Positions 11,295-38,497 of a DNA stretch of 64,000 bases are shown here, piece after piece. The notes under the pieces were generated by a model. The model made no database searches, was not told the DNA's origin, and was given only the letters and a program-made list of their open reading frames with translations. Position 1 is the stretch's first letter; every line of letters begins with the position of its first letter. The translations under genes were made by a program, and so were the position numbers. This DNA is from Methanosarcina horonobensis HB-1 = JCM 15518 (GTDB taxonomy: Archaea > Halobacteriota > Methanosarcinia > Methanosarcinales > Methanosarcinaceae), in assembly GCF_000970285.1 (NCBI RefSeq), contig NZ_CP009516.1:4815036-4879035 (forward strand), written 5' to 3'.

Positions 11295-13086
11295 TTGAGT
11301 AAAAATAGTAATGTAACAGATAAAAAAAATATAATGATAAAAGGAAAGGGCATTGCATACAAGTGGATTGCACTGTTCAATATCACACTATCATCGCTGA
11401 TGGGCACGATTAACGGCAGTATAATTCTGATTTCATTGCCCGCCATATTTAATGGAATCAAGATCAACCCTATGTCTCCAGATGCGTTCCAGTACCTTCT
11501 ATGGATCCTTATGGGCTATGGTCTGGTCACTGCGACAATACTCCTCAGTATAGGAAGACTGGCTGACATGTACGGTCGAGTTAAGCTTTTCAGGCTGGGC
11601 TTTTTGATCTTTACCATTGGCTCGGTCCTGCTTTACCTGACCCCGGACACAGGCAATACCGGCGCACTGGAGCTAATTATCTTCAGGTTCATTCAAGCAG
11701 TCGGCGGCGCCTTTACAATGGCAAACGGTGCCGCAATAATTACTGATGTATTTCCTGCCGGTGAACGTGGAAAGGCTCTCGGCATCAATATGGTTGCACT
11801 TATGTCCGGCCAGTTTATCGGTCTGCTGCTGGGAGGAATACTGGCAACTTATAACTGGCGTTATGTATTCCTGGTCAACATTCCCTTTGCTCTCCTGGGA
11901 ACGGTATTGTCCTACAGGGAGATGAAAGAAGTTTCTTTCAGGGCTCCAAAGACAAGTATCGATATTGTAGGGAACTTATTCTTTATTGGAGGGCTTACCT
12001 CGCTGCTTATCGGCGTAACCTATGGCCTGATGCCTTACGAACACAACGGCATTACAGATGCAATGGGCTGGAACAATCCTCTTGTGATCACAACAATTGG
12101 GATCGGCATGCTGCTCTTGATTGCTTTCCCGTTTGTAGAGAGCAGGGTAAAGAATCCCATGTTCAGACTGGAATTCTTTAAGATCCGGGCTTTTACCTAT
12201 GCAAATCTTGCCAGTTTTACGGCAGCTATTGCACGCGGTGGTGTCATGTTCATGCTCATCCTGCTGCTGCAAGGTATCTGGCTCCCGCTTCATGGTTACA
12301 GCTTTGAAGATACGCCTTTCTGGGCAGGTATCTATATGCTTCCCATGACCCTCGGGTTCATTATCATGGGGCCTATTTCAGGGATACTTTCCGACAAATA
12401 CGGTCCAAGATGGATAGCAACTGCGGGCATGGATTCTTGTTGCTCTTGTCTTTCTCGGACTCGCAATGCTTCCCTATAATTTCGATTACTGGGAGCTTGG
12501 CGTCCTTATTTTCCTGATGGGCATAGGCAGCGGTATGTTCAGCTCACCGAACACTTCCTCGATAATGAACTCGGTACCTCCGCAGGACCGGGGTGTTGCG
12601 TCAGGAATGATGTCTACGTTAATGAACTCAGCATCAACGCTAAGCATGGCAGTATTCTTCACCATCGTGATCGTGGGAATTCAGGAAGCATTTCCGGGTG
12701 CAATCCTGGCCTCTTTCGCCAGCTTTGGATCGATTACCCCAGATGTGCAGCAGCTTGTGGATTATCTGATCAGCATGTCGCCGACAAACGCTCTGTTCTC
12801 CGCCTTCCTGGGCTATAACCCTATGGATTCAATTCTGAGCTCAATGAATCCTGGAATCGTAAATGCAATACCGCAACAGATCGTTACCACGCTGACAGGC
12901 AATTACTGGTTCCCGCAGACACTTCAGGAAGCATTCATGCCTGCTCTTCGACTCTCGTTTATAATCGGGGCTGTACTTTCAGGTATAGCTGCGATACTTT
13001 CAGCAATGAGAGGACAGCGATATATTTACGAGGCTCATATCTCGACCAGCGATGTTGGTAAAGGCGAAGTTACACGAGGAGATTAA
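11295..13086 (+). pseudogene. DHA2-type MFS efflux transporter, interrupted by a frameshift
   Basis: The reading frame starts at TTG 11295, 6 nt after a GAGGT ribosome-binding sequence, and encodes the front of a 14-TM drug:H+ antiporter. Visible features are [16 protein letters not shown] after TM2 and the motif C-like region [20 protein letters not shown]. The frame is lost at 12431-12432, where an apparent extra G follows GGCAT. Removing one base restores [14 protein letters not shown] and joins it to the frame ending at 13086, giving about 596 aa. Both halves look otherwise intact, so the change is recent or a sequencing error. The CARF-wHTH gene lies divergently upstream. Confidence 0.75.
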
Positions 13087-14920: not shown

Positions 14921-15521
<601 letters not shown>

Positions 15522-15555
15522 CCGGTCTGAATTTAAACAAAAGGAAGTATAGAAG

Positions 15556-16164
15556 ATGTACGATTACGAAGAGCTTTTGGACCGTGCAATGGCAAAGATG
15601 CCGGACACAGAGACTACTGACGCTCGATTCGTAATCCCTGAACCCAAACTCTTTTCCGAAGGCAAAACCACAATTCTTGACAACTTCGGAAGTATTGCAG
15701 ACACCCTCAACCGGGACCCTGACCACCTGATGAAATATCTCACCAGGGAACTGGGGACTGCAGGGAAGATAGAAGGCACACGTGCAGTCTTCCAGGGCAG
15801 GTTTACACGAGCTCAGATTGCAGACAACATTCAGGCATATGTTGACGAATACGTTATGTGTTCGGAATGTGAACGCCCGGATACCCAGCTTGTCAGGGTG
15901 GACAGGGTGCTTCTCCTGAAATGTTCTGCATGCGGAGCGCACAGACCTGTCAAAAAGAGAAAGGTAAGCAATGTAGCTGTCAGGGAAGCCATCGAAGAGG
16001 GCGGAACCTACGAACTCCGGATAGATGCCGTTGGGTCCAAAGGTGACGGGATAGCAAAAATAGACAAGTATACGGTCTTCGTGCCCGGAGCCGCAAAAGG
16101 CGATGTTGTCAAAGTAAAGATAAAGAAAATCAGCGGAAACCTCGCCTTCTCGGAAAGGGCTTGA
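15556..16164 (+). CDS. translation initiation factor aIF2 subunit beta fused to a TRAM domain
   Basis: Residues 1-135 are aIF2-beta: the alpha/beta core (about 25-95) and a C4 zinc finger made by [10 protein letters not shown]...CSACG. aIF2 delivers initiator tRNA to the small ribosomal subunit. Residues from about 145 to 202 are a TRAM domain ([20 protein letters not shown]... and a C-terminal [10 protein letters not shown]), a small RNA-binding beta barrel usually found on tRNA-modifying enzymes or as a standalone archaeal protein. This gives the factor an extra RNA-binding module. Cotranscribed with L10e. Confidence 0.92.
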
Positions 16165-16595: not shown

Positions 16596-17810
16596 ATGAA
16601 TTCTGAAAAAAAGAATGTGCCGGACTTTCCTGCAAAAGATAGGAACATAGAAATCTTCTCCATGCCAGGGCTGTCTGTGAACCTTCAGCGGTATGAAGGG
16701 AAAAACCTGAAACTTACAGCAAAGGGAGCCCTGAAACCTGCCTGCAGCCCAATCCTGAAAAAGATAAATTCACGCCTGCAGGAAGAAAAACCAGCTCTTG
16801 TACAGGAGGACAGGGTTATTCCCTCGGCCTGGCTACCCCCAATCCCGAGCCCTGCATTTAAACGCCTTATTTTTGCAGAAGTTCAGATAGCTCTGGGAAA
16901 ATACATTCCTGAAACCGTTTCCATTGAGATCACCCGCCAGAATAGTTCAAGATATCCACCGGGTACAGTTGCTGATGAACTGGATACAGATACAATTAAA
17001 AGAACAATAGACGAAGCCCTGGAACTTGGCACATTAATTATCAGCTTTACCGAGAATGACCCTCTGCTGCGTGAAGAAATCTTTGAACTTATTGAGTATG
17101 TGGACAAAAAGCGCGCTATCGTAAACTGTTCCACCTGGGGTACGGACTTTTCAAAAGAAACTGCCCTCCGTTTGAAAGAAGCAGGACTTCATTCACTCAT
17201 GGTCGGCGTTTATTCTACCGACCCCAAGAAACATGATGCGGTCCGAAAATCGGAAGGGTCGTACGAGCGGGCAATCTCAACCATAAAACTGGCTCTTGAA
17301 GCAGGACTCCTTGTAGTAATGACAACTCATGCCTCCCCCTCAAACATGAAAGAACTTCCTGCTCTCTATGCACTTGCATCGGAACTCGGGGTACATGAGT
17401 TTTCTGTCTGGGAATCAATGCCAAAAAGAAGGGGCGAACCTGTGATTACTGACAGAGACCGAAGGACAATCCTTGAGATGTATCACCGGATTAACTCTGC
17501 CCCGGAAGGCCCTCGCATGTTCTCAAACACCTATTTCGAAGGACAGATGATGGGTGCAATGGCAGGCAGGCGCTGGATGCATGTGACCGTAGACGGAGAT
17601 GTAAAACCAAGCCCTTACCCTCCATTCAGGTTCGGGAACGTAAAAGAAGTACCCTTAAAAGAAATCTGGCAGAGAATCAGGAGTTATCCGTATTTCCAGA
17701 GGCAGAAGAACTTGAGTCCCATGCATGATCCTGAGTTTATGGACTTCGTTGATAAAATTCCTGAAGAAGCAAAACTGCCCTATCCTTTTGAAGAGATTTG
17801 TGAGAAATAA
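16596..17810 (+). CDS. radical-SAM/SPASM-like protein lacking all cluster-binding cysteines
   Basis: The 404-aa protein follows the layout of radical SAM-SPASM proteins. The barrel entry strand SIEITRQNSSRYPPG (about 109-123) stands where such enzymes have ITxxCNxxCxxC, but Asn, Tyr and Gly replace the three cysteines. Later segments match the barrel (SLMVGVYSTDPKKHDAVRKSEGSYERAI, where others read SLDG) and the post-barrel SPASM entry (VTVDGDVKPSPYPPFRFGNVKE, then EIWQRI), where Ser replaces the usual Cys. Only three cysteines remain, none in a cluster motif. It is therefore probably a pseudoenzyme or a barrel with another cofactor. Full length and an intact frame argue against simple decay. 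Confidence 0.7.
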   Translation: MNSEKKNVPDFPAKDRNIEIFSMPGLSVNLQRYEGKNLKLTAKGALKPACSPILKKINSRLQEEKPALVQEDRVIPSAWLPPIPSPAFKRLIFAEVQIALGKYIPETVSIEITRQNSSRYPPGTVADELDTDTIKRTIDEALELGTLIISFTENDPLLREEIFELIEYVDKKRAIVNCSTWGTDFSKETALRLKEAGLHSLMVGVYSTDPKKHDAVRKSEGSYERAISTIKLALEAGLLVVMTTHASPSNMKELPALYALASELGVHEFSVWESMPKRRGEPVITDRDRRTILEMYHRINSAPEGPRMFSNTYFEGQMMGAMAGRRWMHVTVDGDVKPSPYPPFRFGNVKEVPLKEIWQRIRSYPYFQRQKNLSPMHDPEFMDFVDKIPEEAKLPYPFEEICEK

Positions 17811-17883: not shown

Positions 17884-18306
17884 TCATTCAGCGGATGAAT
17901 CCTGATCTAATAGGCCCTTAACTTCCTGCAAAAAGGATTGGAGAGTCTTAAGATCGTTTTGCAGGACACCATATACCTGATCAAGATCTAGCTGCCAGTA
18001 TATATGAACCAGGACATTTCGGAATCCTGCCAGATCCGAGAGCTCTTCAGCAAGTTCCTCAGGAATTAGCCCTGCCTGGCCCAGTATTTCAAATGTCTCT
18101 CTATAAGTTGTGGGCTTTCCAAGGCCTTCTTTAGCTATTAAGCTGGTAGCTATATCTATAGCTGCCTGAATACTTACCAGCATGGCATGGAGAATCATAT
18201 TCCTTTTGTCCCTATCTTTTTTCAGGTCTTCCAGAGATATGTTCTGATACCTTTGCCAGTCTTTCTGAGATTCGTCAAGCTCTCTGAGGTGGGCCAGTAT
18301 TCTCAT
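17884..18306 (-). CDS. hepT: HepT-type toxin (DUF86 HEPN ribonuclease family)
   Basis: The 140-aa all-alpha protein has the HEPN catalytic motif RX4HXY as R96-NVLV-H101-I-Y103. In characterised pairs, HepT is an RNase that MntA silences by AMPylating this tyrosine. The gene follows mntA with only 1 nt between stop and start, so the pair is one transcript. Residues 30-60 and 85-110 form the two long helices that pack in HEPN dimers. The pair is a type VII toxin-antitoxin module by family knowledge; activity here is inferred. Confidence 0.88.
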   Translation of the reverse strand: MRILAHLRELDESQKDWQRYQNISLEDLKKDRDKRNMILHAMLVSIQAAIDIATSLIAKEGLGKPTTYRETFEILGQAGLIPEELAEELSDLAGFRNVLVHIYWQLDLDQVYGVLQNDLKTLQSFLQEVKGLLDQDSSAE

Positions 18307-18307
18307 T

Positions 18308-18712
18308 TTAGACCCTCGCCAGGAACTCCTTATCTATAAAATCATACATATACTTCAGATCCAGGTAAGTTGAGATCACCTCAGATTCGTAATCTATCCT
18401 CCTGGACTCGTCTCTGGAGAAGATAACCTGTCCTTTTTTGATAACCTCGAACTGAAGTTCCATAGGGGAATTGTTTAGTATTTTTATGTCAAACTCAAGT
18501 CTGGGACTTATCTGTCGCTCCAGTTTACCTGCTACTCTCAGAGAGAACTTGAGACTTTCATAAGGATCCAGGCTTTCGGACAGGAGCAAAGCTATATCTA
18601 TATCGTTGAAATCCTTTCTCTCAAGAAATGAACCGAAGATATAAGCTGTATCCACTTCTTTCAATCCTGCTAAAATCTTGCTTACATCTGCTAAAAATGT
18701 GCTCTTATCCAT
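18308..18712 (-). CDS. mntA: MntA-type minimal nucleotidyltransferase antitoxin
   Basis: The 134-aa protein carries the nucleotidyltransferase signature GS(27-28)...D37-I-D39 within FGSFLERKDFNDIDIALL. MntA antitoxins transfer AMP from ATP to the HepT tyrosine. It is the first gene of the pair and is transcribed away from the IS element that begins 97 bp upstream. An AT-rich stretch with TATATATTT lies at 18736-18744, about 25-30 bp before the start codon, and is a likely promoter. All expected catalytic residues in the signature are present. Confidence 0.85.
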   Translation of the reverse strand: MDKSTFLADVSKILAGLKEVDTAYIFGSFLERKDFNDIDIALLLSESLDPYESLKFSLRVAGKLERQISPRLEFDIKILNNSPMELQFEVIKKGQVIFSRDESRRIDYESEVISTYLDLKYMYDFIDKEFLARV

Positions 18713-18809
18713 CTCACTACAATTGAGCTTTTGAATATATATTTCTGAGGGTTAGAGTCAGGTACTGAAAAAAAGCACAGTTATTAACAGAAAAAAGTGG
18801 ACTACCCTC

Positions 18810-19838
18810 TGTTTTATCCTGAAATAATTTCGCTTTGAAACTTTTTTCCTTTTGTCCATATTTTCACAGCCCAAACAATCTCGTTCCTATTCTGAATTTT
18901 GCCTCAATTGGGAGTCTGTTCCAGAATGCATCTTGTGGTGATTCTAATTGTTCAAGTTTCAAAGCTCCATGAGGTCTCTGGTTATACAATTGAACGAATT
19001 CCTCGAACGATTGAAACTCTCCTCTAAACCTCTGATATGTATCGAACCATTTCTCTATTTTTCCGTTTGTTTGAGGATGTCTGACCCTTGCAAGTATTGG
19101 TTTAATCCCAAGTTCTCTAATTCTCGTTTTAAATTCACTTTCCCATGAACCATCCTCATTAATCCTGTGCGCTCCGAATTCACTTCCATGATCCATGATG
19201 AGCTCCCTTAAAGGGCATATATCCCAGTACTCTCTGACAAGTTCATCGATCACTTTAATGGTGTTTTCCGTGTTGCAATGAGCATACTCTCCTCCTGCAA
19301 TTACCATTCTTGATGAATCATCAAGAATGGCACAGACTTGCAACCCTAATAGAGGGTTTTCATGCCAATCGATATGTGCAGCAGACATACTATGTTCACG
19401 TTCGTATCTACACCATTTTCTTCTCTGTTTCTTTTTTCGGTTTTCCTTGGCAAGGTTCATACTGAGTAGATAGTTATGGATTCTGTTATGAGATATTTTA
19501 CGATTATACTTGCCTTCTATGAGAATTTCAAGATAACAGGCTCCAAACTTATAATCTGAGTAAGTTTGGTCAATTATCTCCTTATCGTCGGAGGATAACT
19601 GTTTACGTGGCCTTCCAAGATTATTACCAACTTGAGGAAGCTGATCAATGTCAACGTATTCTTTATATATCTGCTGAACTCGACGAGCTGAGATCCCCTG
19701 GATCTCAGCTATCGTCGAGGTAGATTCTCCTTTCAACTTTTGAGCAATGATCCAACGTATCTTTTTCCCGTTAAGTTTCACGATAGATAAGGGATTGCAA
19801 CCAACATAGTTAGCGCGAAATAATTTCGGGATAAAACA
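18810..19838 (-). mobile_element. complete IS481-type insertion sequence, about 1029 bp
   Basis: The element is bounded by 24-bp imperfect inverted repeats: 18810-18833 (TGTTTTATCC... to ...ATTTCGC) and its complement at 19815-19838, matching at 22 of 24 positions and ending TG...CA. A perfect 15-bp direct repeat, AAGTGGACTACCCTC, flanks it at 18795-18809 and 19839-19853. This is the expected target-site duplication and indicates that the insertion is intact and fairly young. The exact border can shift by 1 bp because the flanking base is shared. It carries one transposase gene. Confidence 0.85.
18864..19781 (-). CDS. IS481-family DDE transposase
   Basis: The 305-aa transposase has an N-terminal helix-turn-helix (about 1-60; ISARRVQQIYKEY) and a retroviral-integrase-like core. 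Candidate catalytic residues are D in AAHIDWHEN, D in LIMDHGSEFG and E in NGKIEKWFDTY, with IS481-like spacing. A C-terminal integrase segment (YNQRPHGAL) follows. The frame is intact and both element ends are present, so it may still be active. The gene reads toward the mntA/hepT pair. Confidence 0.92.
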   Translation of the reverse strand: MKLNGKKIRWIIAQKLKGESTSTIAEIQGISARRVQQIYKEYVDIDQLPQVGNNLGRPRKQLSSDDKEIIDQTYSDYKFGACYLEILIEGKYNRKISHNRIHNYLLSMNLAKENRKKKQRRKWCRYEREHSMSAAHIDWHENPLLGLQVCAILDDSSRMVIAGGEYAHCNTENTIKVIDELVREYWDICPLRELIMDHGSEFGAHRINEDGSWESEFKTRIRELGIKPILARVRHPQTNGKIEKWFDTYQRFRGEFQSFEEFVQLYNQRPHGALKLEQLESPQDAFWNRLPIEAKFRIGTRLFGL

Positions 19839-20091: not shown

Positions 20092-20105
20092 CCATGAGGG
20101 ACTTT

Positions 20106-21419
20106 ATGACTAATAAACTTGACCCGTGGAGTTCAAGCGATATTACTGACTATTCCAAGTTATTCGAAGAATTCGGGATTTCTCCTTTTGAAAACGTACT
20201 TCCTGAAATTCCGTCCCCGCATAAGTACATGCGGAGAAAAATAGTCTTCGGACACCGTGATTATGAACAGATTGCAGAGGCCATGCGGACAGGTGCCCCT
20301 TTTTCAGTTATGGACGGTTTTATGCCTTCAGGAAAGGTCCACCTGGGACACAAAATGGTAATGGACCAGATAGTCTGGCACCAGGAAATGGGAGCTTCAG
20401 CCTTTGTCGGGATTGCAGACAGGGAAGCTTTTTCGGTGCGCGGCTTTTCCTGGCAGAAGTGCAGGGAAATAGGGGTAGAAGAATACATATTAAGCCTGAT
20501 CGCCCTCGGTTTCAAACCTGAAGGCCTTATTTACTTCCAGTCAGGCTGCGGAAGTGTTAAAGACCTTGCATTCGAACTGGGAGTCAGAGTCAATTTCTCG
20601 GAATTAAGCGCAATTTACGGCTTTTCAGGAGAAACAAGCCTCTCCCATATGATCAGTGTAGCAACCCAGGCTGCAGATATCCTCCAGCCCCAGCTAGAAG
20701 AATTCGGGGGACCAAAACCGGTTGTGGTCCCTGTAGGCCCTGACCAGGACCCTCATCTCCGCCTTACAAGGGGGCTTGCAGGCAAAATGAACATGTTCAG
20801 GGTTGAGGAGAGGGAGGACGCAAAAACAGGCAGGAAATACCTGAGCATCAGGGGAAAAACCGCACAGAAAGAAGCTCTTCAGGAGCTTAAGAAACGCATT
20901 CCCGGGAAAGTAAAACTCTACGAAGAGCACATTGACGTGCTTGAATATCCCGATCTTACAGGGCTTGAAAAGATTGTAAGGGAAGTAGCAGTCGAGTTCG
21001 GTGGCTACGCTTTCATTCCTCCTGCATCCACTTACCACCGCTTCATGAGCGGGCTGCAGGGCGGGAAGATGTCGAGCAGCATCCCCGAAAGCCAGATTGC
21101 CCTGACGGACGACCCCAAAGAAGGGGCAAAAAAAGTAAAAAGGGCAAAGACCGGAGGCTGTGTAACCCTCGAAGAGCAGAAAAAGCTTGGAGGAAAGCCT
21201 GAAGAGTGCTCTGTCTTTGAACTGATGCTTTTCCACCTGCTTGACAGTGATGAAGAACTGCTGGAGATCAGACAGGAGTGTGTTTCCGGGACAAGGATGT
21301 GCGGTTCATGCAAACAGCTTGCAGCCGAGAAAATGCAGGAGTTCCTTAAAGATCATCAGGAAAAGAGGGAACTTGCAAGGGAACGGCTCGACGAGTACAG
21401 AATTGTCTACAAAAACTAA
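20106..21419 (+). CDS. trpS: tryptophanyl-tRNA synthetase
   Basis: This class I aminoacyl-tRNA synthetase (437 aa) charges tRNA-Trp. The HIGH-type motif is PSGKVHLGH and the KMSKS-type motif is KMSSS. The flanking segment [17 protein letters not shown] is typical of archaeal/eukaryotic-type TrpRS. I place the start at 20106 because GAGGG lies 5 nt upstream. The ATG at 20094 would add four residues and contains that ribosome-binding sequence. The C-terminus has a zinc-binding-like [13 protein letters not shown] segment. Probably its own transcription unit; pheS follows after 166 bp. Confidence 0.95.
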
Positions 21420-21429
21420 ACCACTCAGG

Positions 21430-21495
21430 CTAAACTATTCAGACTAAATTATTCAAAATAAATCATTCAAATTAAATTATTTAAAACAAATTATT
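21430..21495 (+). repeat. imperfect tandem repeat of about 15 bp between trpS and pheS
   Basis: About four to five AT-rich units related to AAATTATTCAAAATA follow each other directly after the trpS stop. They may arise by slippage, and the run ends just before the pheS promoter-like sequence TTTATTAAATTTT (21499-21511). Confidence 0.5.
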
Positions 21496-21585
21496 GACAG
21501 ATTTATTAAATTTTCATAAACGGTCAAAACCCTATACATGATCAAATTCTTAATCGTTTCAGGAAGATCAGGACGTGGTCACAGT

Positions 21586-23064
21586 ATGAGTACTCAGGAT
21601 AACCTCACAATTAATGAGAAAAAGGTCTTGCTCGCCCTTGAGGAGCTAGGGTCGGCAACCCCCGATAAACTGGAAGAGAAAGCAGGACTGCAGGTAGATG
21701 CGGCAATGCAGGCAGCCTTCATGCTCCAGGAAAAAGAACTTGCCTCTGTTTCCGAAAAAGTGCTTGAACGCTACTCTCTTACGAAGGAAGGAGAAGAATA
21801 TACGAAAACCGGACTTCCGGAGCGTCAGATAATTGATGCTCTGAAAGCCCCTACTTCCCTTGAAGAATTGAGGAGCCGTTTCTCCCCTCAAACCGTAGGA
21901 ATTGCAACTGGATGGCTCGTAAAAAAGGGATGGGCAAAGGTTGAAAACGGAGTAATGGTACCTTCTGGAGAGGCTCCTGCAGGCAAAGATGAAGAGGTCC
22001 TTGCGGCTTTTGCAGAAAAAGCAAAAACTCTCGAGGAACTTGAAACCGATGAAGGAATTATAAAAGATCTTCTCAAGCGCAAACTTGTCTTAAAGCACGA
22101 AGAGAAGTTCAGGACTGTTTCAATAACAGATGCAGGAAGTTCCCTTGCTGCCGAAGGCATTGTCCTTGAAGAAGAAATTGCTCAGCTCACGCCGGACATG
22201 CTGAAAAGCGGAGCCTGGAAAGGGAAAAAATTCAGACCCTACAGGCTTGATATCACTCCGAAGCCTCTTTACGGAACCAAGATCCACCCCTACAGGCGCC
22301 TGATTGAACAGATGCGCCAGATCTTCCTGGAAATGGGCTTTACAGAGATCAAAGGCGGTATAATCCAGAGTTCTTTCTGGAACTTTGACTCTCTCTTCCA
22401 GCCTCAGGACCATCCTGCCAGAGACATGCAGGATACTTTCCACCTTGGCAGCACCTGCGAGCTTCCGGAAGAGTACTCTGATAAAGTAGCAGCAATGCAC
22501 GAACGCGGAGGGGATATCGACTCCTGCGGCTGGGGCGGAATCTGGGACAAAGAACTTGCCGGACGCAATGTGCTCAGAACCCATACTACTTCAGTTACCA
22601 TAAAGTACCTCGCAGACCACCCCGAACCGCCTGTGAAAGCCTTCTGCATTGACAGGGCTTACCGCAGGGAAACAATCGACCCTACCCACACCCCTGAATT
22701 CGAGCAGCTTGAAGGTGTGGTTATGGACAAGGATATGTCTTTTGCAGATCTTCTCGGCCTCCTTGCAGAGTTCTACCACAGAATGGGTTTCGAAGAAGTC
22801 CGCTTCCGCCCTGGATATTTCCCATATACCGAACCGAGTGTAGAACCCGAGGTTTATGTGGACGGCCTTGGCTGGGTTGAACTCGGAGGCGCAGGCGTCT
22901 TCAGAAAAGAAGTCACGGAGCCTTTCGGGATAAAAGAACCCGTTCTTGCCTGGGGGCTCGGGGTAAGCCGGCTCGCCATGCTGAAACTGGGGCTTAAAGA
23001 CCTGAGGCTTCTCTACCAGTCCGATATTGATTGGCTCAGAAAGAGCGAGATTTGCAGGATCTGA
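21586..23064 (+). CDS. pheS: phenylalanyl-tRNA synthetase alpha subunit
   Basis: Archaeal/eukaryotic-type PheRS alpha, about 492 aa from the ATG at 21586; an upstream ATG at 21538 would add 16 residues and is less like the family. The N-terminal 190 residues hold repeated winged-helix modules ([20 protein letters not shown]...) that bind tRNA. The catalytic class II core follows, with motif 2 near [10 protein letters not shown] and motif 3 near [13 protein letters not shown]. It works as an alpha2-beta2 tetramer with PheT, which is not in this window. Confidence 0.95.
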
Positions 23065-38425: not shown

Positions 38426-38497
38426 GGAAACCTGATCATGTAGATCGAATGGACTCTAAATCCGTTCAGCCGGGTTAGATTCCCGGGGTTTCCGCCA
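38426..38497 (+). tRNA. pylT: tRNA-Pyl (anticodon CUA)
   Basis: This 72-nt gene is the amber suppressor tRNA for pyrrolysine. The acceptor stem GGAAACC pairs with GGTTTCC. The discriminator base G and an encoded CCA end the gene. The anticodon loop is in GGACTCTAAATCC with CTA, and the T stem-loop is CCGGGTTAGATTCCCGG. Family hallmarks are visible: a very short D loop (GATCATGTAGATC), a single base between acceptor and D stems, and an elongated anticodon stem. PylS, encoded 228 bp downstream, charges it. Confidence 0.98.

Follow-up and report, generated by a model that had tools for sequence, protein, structure and literature searches.

The locus

The window, by which we mean the whole analysed stretch of 64,000 nucleotides from Methanosarcina horonobensis, contains a gene that runs in one unbroken frame from an ATG start through 404 codons to a stop, according to the listing of its open reading frames (Table 1). 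The encoded protein matches the Pfam families Radical_SAM (amino acids 124–255) and SPASM (amino acids 323–368), both above the curated cut-offs; none of the listed NCBIfam models reaches its own. L10e-like and aIF2-beta-like genes lie upstream of it, and TrpS-like and PheS-like genes downstream. Between the gene and that for TrpS lie a HEPN-like and nucleotidyltransferase-like gene pair, which also occurs in two other loci (L034 and L039), and a transposase-like gene. Elsewhere in the window, two overlapping reading frames in different frames look like one MFS transporter gene that a frameshift has broken in two, and there is a gene for tRNA-Pyl.

The same genome encodes paralogues B (L028) and C (L029), both canonical and at 37% identity, which share the N-terminal module of the window protein; S77, W79, P81, P82, P84, R90 and P105 of this module are invariant across all three groups. 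All Methanosarcinaceae genomes (112/112) have matches, and almost all hold three copies. Comparison of these sequences shows the window gene to be paralogue A of a three-member set in which B and C remain canonical.

Table 1. Coordinates of the gene, its altered sites and other features of the window
Feature	Position	Strand	Basis or remark
MFS transporter-like gene, apparently frameshift-split (11295-13086)	11295-12479; 12466-13086		Overlapping reading frames
Upstream conserved neighbours, L10e-like (14928-15521) and aIF2-beta-like (15556-16164)	14928-16164	+	Gene order shared by canonical and cluster-less genomes; names by inspection
Group-A radical-SAM/SPASM homologue, almost certainly a pseudoenzyme	16596-17810	+	Reading frame; Pfam Radical_SAM 1e-16, SPASM 7e-6
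N-terminal module, amino acids 17-110, with S-x-W-x-PP-x-P motif	16644-16925	+	Invariant residues; common to A, B and C
Former CxxxCxxC, amino acids 116-123, reading NSSRYPPG (N116, Y120, G123)	16941-16964	+	Alignment column counts
TEND, presumed counterpart of SAM-binding GGE	17049-17060	+	Alignment; TEGD in canonical A, DGGE in B and C
TWG with W181	17133-17141	+	W in 41/41 cluster-less; P or S in canonical A; S in B and C
Former auxiliary-cluster Cys, now A321	17556-17558	+	Alignment column counts
Former auxiliary-cluster Cys of KPCP-type site (KPSP), now S339	17610-17612	+	Alignment column counts
Former auxiliary-cluster Cys, now S374	17715-17717	+	Alignment column counts
HEPN-like and nucleotidyltransferase-like gene pair with transposase-like gene	17884-19781		
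Downstream conserved neighbours, TrpS-like (20094-21419) and PheS-like (21538-23064)	20094-23064	+	Same order in Methanosarcinaceae loci; names by inspection
tRNA-Pyl gene	38426-38497		CTA anticodon

Loss of the iron–sulphur cluster ligands

The window protein has neither the CxxxCxxC motif with which an active radical SAM enzyme binds its SAM-ligated 4Fe–4S cluster nor the auxiliary-cluster cysteines of a SPASM domain, although its sequence homology to SPASM is kept. Its only cysteines are C50, C178 and C402, none of them at a cluster position. The initial annotation had read these same replacements at the CxxxCxxC and KPCP-type sites, counted three remaining cysteines and proposed a full-length pseudoenzyme; the reading frame, the domain matches and the alignment columns bear this out, and the protein is almost certainly a radical-SAM pseudoenzyme.

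Its relatives show what has been lost. We compared it with 37 canonical A orthologues from other Methanosarcinaceae, ANME-2 and Methanotrichaceae, in which columns 116, 120, 123, 321 and 374 hold cysteine in 37/37 sequences and column 339 in 35/37. All six columns are likewise cysteine in 12/12 sequences of paralogue B and 12/12 of paralogue C. In the Methanosarcina-type sequences (n=36; Methanosarcina and two close genera) the cluster columns hold cysteine in 0/36, apart from one stray C120, and in five further sequences from two sister genera (g6 and g8) the cluster cysteines are absent except for C120 in two. The residues that replace the ligands vary among the cluster-less sequences, as would be expected of released sites.

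A single loss at a fixed chromosomal place

Across the 14 genera of Methanosarcinaceae, the cluster-less gene occurs in g1 (Methanosarcina), g4, g5, g6 and g8, and a gene with an intact cluster site in g2, g3, g7 and g9–g14. The orthologues in ANME-3 (L016 and L022) and Methanotrichaceae (L017 and L019–L021) also retain CxxxCxxC. The tree places the window gene with the A orthologues, and in canonical and cluster-less Methanosarcinaceae alike the gene lies between L10e/aIF2-beta and TrpS/PheS (named by inspection). Because the chromosomal place is shared, the clusters must have been lost in place; synteny and tree together rule out replacement by a paralogue. On this combined evidence, the window gene is shown to be the orthologue, in unchanged position, of a radical-SAM/SPASM enzyme that was once canonical.

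All cluster-less sequences form one clade in the larger tree (support 97/96). We weighed two independent losses, one in the Methanosarcina type and one in g6/g8, because the replacement residues differ between them and the g6/g8 branches are long, and the smaller tree does not resolve how these join the other cluster-less sequences. Against this are their join at 97/96 in the larger tree and the W181 common to 41/41. Tree and alignment thus place the loss of both cluster sites in an ancestor shared by Methanosarcina and the genera closest to it.

The loss is therefore not confined to Methanosarcina, where its conservation was to be checked, but extends to four related genera (g4, g5, g6 and g8). 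According to the initial annotation, close homologues with an intact CxxxCxxC would make this one decayed copy. Homologues at about 45–61% identity do retain the motif, but the second half of that argument fails: the loss is clade-wide and old, and together with the dN/dS values given below this rules out a single decayed copy.

Selection on the cluster-less gene

Pairwise dN/dS against the window gene is 0.06–0.11, and within Methanosarcina its median is 0.117, with a median dS of 1.0; canonical A genes of other genera give 0.045–0.10. Measured on the same genome pair, dN/dS is 0.080 for A, 0.027 for B and 0.038 for C, so that constraint on A is some two to three times weaker than on its paralogues. 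By region, the values for A are 0.112 (N-terminal), 0.093 (barrel) and 0.085 (ex-SPASM). A is under strong, mildly relaxed constraint along its whole length, the ex-SPASM region included. Chance does not account for the loss of the cluster ligands, which is fixed throughout a clade held under strong purifying selection.

These data bear on whether A is a decaying pseudogene retained by chance. The replacements in the cluster loop do vary as they would at unconstrained sites, and one metagenome-assembled copy is frameshifted near its end. The frame is nevertheless open in nearly every genome of the clade, all three regions are constrained, and a dN/dS of about 0.1 holds at a median dS near 1. 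The selection data contradict decay, which we regard as very improbable. The frameshifted copy, in a metagenome-assembled Methanosarcina (L018/L065), is damaged near the C terminus and may reflect an assembly error or recent damage.

A retained barrel with an altered SAM site

An AlphaFold model of the window protein built with 22 homologues (pLDDT 82, pTM 0.85) finds its best PDB matches in SkfB, PqqE, SuiB and MoaA. Along with the Pfam match, the model supports a radical-SAM/SPASM fold, rather than the unrelated one that would have undone the initial annotation. A canonical control (L016) gave a similar model, with low confidence at the same loop. The low pLDDT of loop 117–123 is thus no sign of disorder following cluster loss, as the canonical control is equally low there.

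The SAM site has also changed. In the segment that we take, from knowledge of the family, to be the counterpart of the SAM-binding GGE motif, the window protein has no GGE-type sequence, and canonical A had already departed from it. The further change, G154N, is fixed in 36/36 Methanosarcina-type sequences and absent from g6/g8. A second altered SAM-site position, P181W, is common to 41/41 cluster-less sequences. Other features of the subfamily persist: of 19 non-cysteine residues diagnostic of A as opposed to B and C, 15 are kept in cluster-less A, and some of the A-diagnostic residues appear to line the barrel interior, judging from strand-end positions in the predicted secondary structure.

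Such conservation could mean that A remains catalytic without clusters, through a non-radical reaction in the same barrel that was taken up, or kept, after the loss. The residues proposed for this, E153, D155, H213, R217, H245, E268 and E273, are invariant or nearly so in the cluster-less sequences (36/36 and 5/5), and selection over the barrel is strong. However, canonical A has these residues without variation, as do B and C for some of them, and they may serve binding only; moreover, the fixed changes are G154N, P181W and C321A, and no fixed new polar residues were seen among them. We consider non-radical catalysis unlikely. A ligand- or partner-binding role is favoured because the subfamily-specific residues are retained.

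Distribution of the A/B/C set

We found the set in families f3 and f4 of the same order and in f7 (Methanotrichaceae) of the same class. It is absent from families f2 and f5 of the order, of which f5 is probably Methanoperedenaceae, except in one fragmentary genome (G185). Most f2 and f5 genomes encode MqnC of the futalosine menaquinone pathway over cut-off, whereas none of the tested f1, f3, f4, f6 and f7 genomes does. Among 392 genomes of the phylum, 104 hold the set, with at least two strong matches each, and 72 encode MqnC; the overlap is 0 against 19 expected (Fisher p 2e-11, uncorrected for ancestry). The absence of MqnC from all set holders (0/104) is what methanophenazine use would lead one to expect, with MqnC reporting only the futalosine route of menaquinone synthesis. 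One genome with a lone C-like match and MqnC (G298) was left out of the set holders. G298 (a C-like gene at 59% identity) and the incomplete G185 both come from families in which the set is otherwise absent, and their isolated matches may stem from contamination or transfer.

A probable link to methanophenazine

Methanophenazine, the membrane electron carrier of Methanosarcinales, is 2-(2,3-dihydropentaprenyloxy)phenazine, a structure whose assembly needs a C25 donor, a prenyl transfer that forms an ether and the reduction of one double bond. Its biosynthetic pathway has been described as not identified (PMC6315138, PMC8546582), and our literature search found no paper linking methanophenazine to the A/B/C genes.

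The neighbours of B and C would fit these steps. B adjoins a polyprenyl synthase gene in 11/12 loci, and the synthase of the window genome is similar to PDB 3ipi over its full length. The gene for the methanophenazine-specific geranylfarnesyl-PP synthase has both a haem cluster and the ATP-synthase operon in its vicinity (PMC3017947), and the B locus shows this arrangement. By synteny, we identify the synthase adjoining B as the methanophenazine geranylfarnesyl-PP synthase. In 8/8 Methanosarcinaceae loci, C comes after UbiA-like and geranylgeranyl-reductase-like genes (named by inspection); for the reductase, the name is backed by Pfam in a deep relative.

No isoprenoid gene adjoins A in the Methanosarcinaceae loci. 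Four deep lineages (f12, f16, f18 and f22) have A next to another paralogue, a short radical-SAM gene and a gene for a geranylgeranyl reductase. In f12, f18 and f22 this locus also encodes a further paralogue, a membrane protein and an NMT1/THI5-like protein, whereas f16 carries these elsewhere in its genome. These A genes group with A at 98/91 in the smaller tree. The other two deep-lineage paralogues form a clade of their own, which the tree does not match one-to-one to B and C. The assignment of A to the pathway thus draws on co-occurrence and deep-lineage clustering, and we consider it fairly probable.

Could the set instead make or modify another product that tracks methanophenazine? A membrane lipid, a cofactor related to haem and a different redox carrier come to mind. 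In several genera a haem gene cluster is found close to B, and of the named NCBIfam models AhbD and NirJ2 come nearest, although far below cut-off. Most of the deep lineages with the cluster, moreover, have no McrA, which turned up in only one of eight tested genomes (G255); for this reason the product there may be a related or a different carrier. On the other hand, separate canonical AhbC-like and AhbD-like genes are present in the same genome, and the set is missing from the menaquinone-encoding f2 and f5 within the order. We regard another product as rather improbable, and methanophenazine as the better candidate.

The deep-lineage loci L141–L146 (f12, f18 and f22) deserve mention in their own right. 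They combine three radical-SAM/SPASM paralogues and the short radical-SAM gene with a geranylgeranyl reductase, a membrane protein without a Pfam match and an NMT1/THI5-like protein. The genomes that carry these loci lack MqnC and, for the most part, McrA, and the loci form a candidate pathway for a membrane redox carrier.

Proposed role of the cluster-less protein

Ancestral A was a canonical radical-SAM/SPASM enzyme encoded at the present chromosomal place; its cluster sites were lost and positions of its SAM site altered, and the gene was then kept by strong purifying selection. We propose that the set serves methanophenazine biosynthesis, in which B may work close to the supply of the C25 prenyl donor and C close to prenyl transfer and the reduction step. 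A would no longer perform radical or SAM chemistry; its barrel and N-terminal module may still bind an A-specific ligand, the B or C protein, or both. It could then be a non-catalytic partner, perhaps as a subunit of a heteromer, holding an intermediate or passing it on, and a heteromer with B or C is the form of this role that we would prefer. That A belongs to the methanophenazine pathway, having given up its catalytic step but kept a ligand- or partner-binding role, is, in our estimation, an evenly balanced proposition, and we are less sure of the partner mechanism than of the pathway assignment. Slightly more tentative is the suggestion that A/B/C are the missing core of methanophenazine biosynthesis, with A in Methanosarcina a cluster-less subunit that is still needed.

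Peptide binding, one of the roles raised by the initial annotation, fares less well. The family context is one of isoprenoid and redox-carrier genes, and we noticed no precursor peptide in a non-systematic look; a peptide (RiPP) maturase reading finds no support. A scaffold or a new catalytic role, which the annotation also raised, may yet apply.

The A/B/C set supplies named, testable candidate genes for the methanophenazine pathway. The loss of every cluster ligand, with its single origin and long maintenance at one chromosomal place while sister genera kept intact orthologues, is also a natural experiment in what a radical-SAM scaffold can do without clusters. A literature search on radical-SAM pseudoenzymes found nothing relevant.

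Comparison with known systems

The haloarchaeal family TIGR04347, degenerate to judge by its name of ‘pseudo-SAM/SPASM’, is matched weakly by the window protein, at 72.3 bits against a cut-off of 525. We ruled it out as the same phenomenon on one member over the cut-off, L135, which departs in the SPASM region but keeps CxxxCxxC (CNLTCEHC). With the motif intact in L135, the ‘pseudo-SAM’ name of that family may mislead.

Among solved radical-SAM/SPASM structures, PqqE, SkfB and SuiB are the best fold matches (E values of 1.9e-12 to 1e-10), but identity over the match is 11–21%, and these proteins hold 4Fe–4S clusters and act on peptides. The best-scoring named models over the barrel are the haem b synthase AhbD (TIGR04545, 110.6 bits) and NirJ2 (TIGR04055, 98.8 bits); these scores are far below the curated cut-offs of 500, the genome has a separate AhbD-like gene, and the window protein has no clusters, and we do not place it in AhbD.

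The canonical group-A orthologues of other Methanosarcinaceae, ANME-2/3 and Methanotrichaceae, themselves uncharacterised, are by tree the counterparts of the window gene. They share its place within the family, its N-terminal module and its A-diagnostic residues, but keep CxxxCxxC (37/37) and the auxiliary-cluster cysteines, and have proline or serine rather than tryptophan at position 181.
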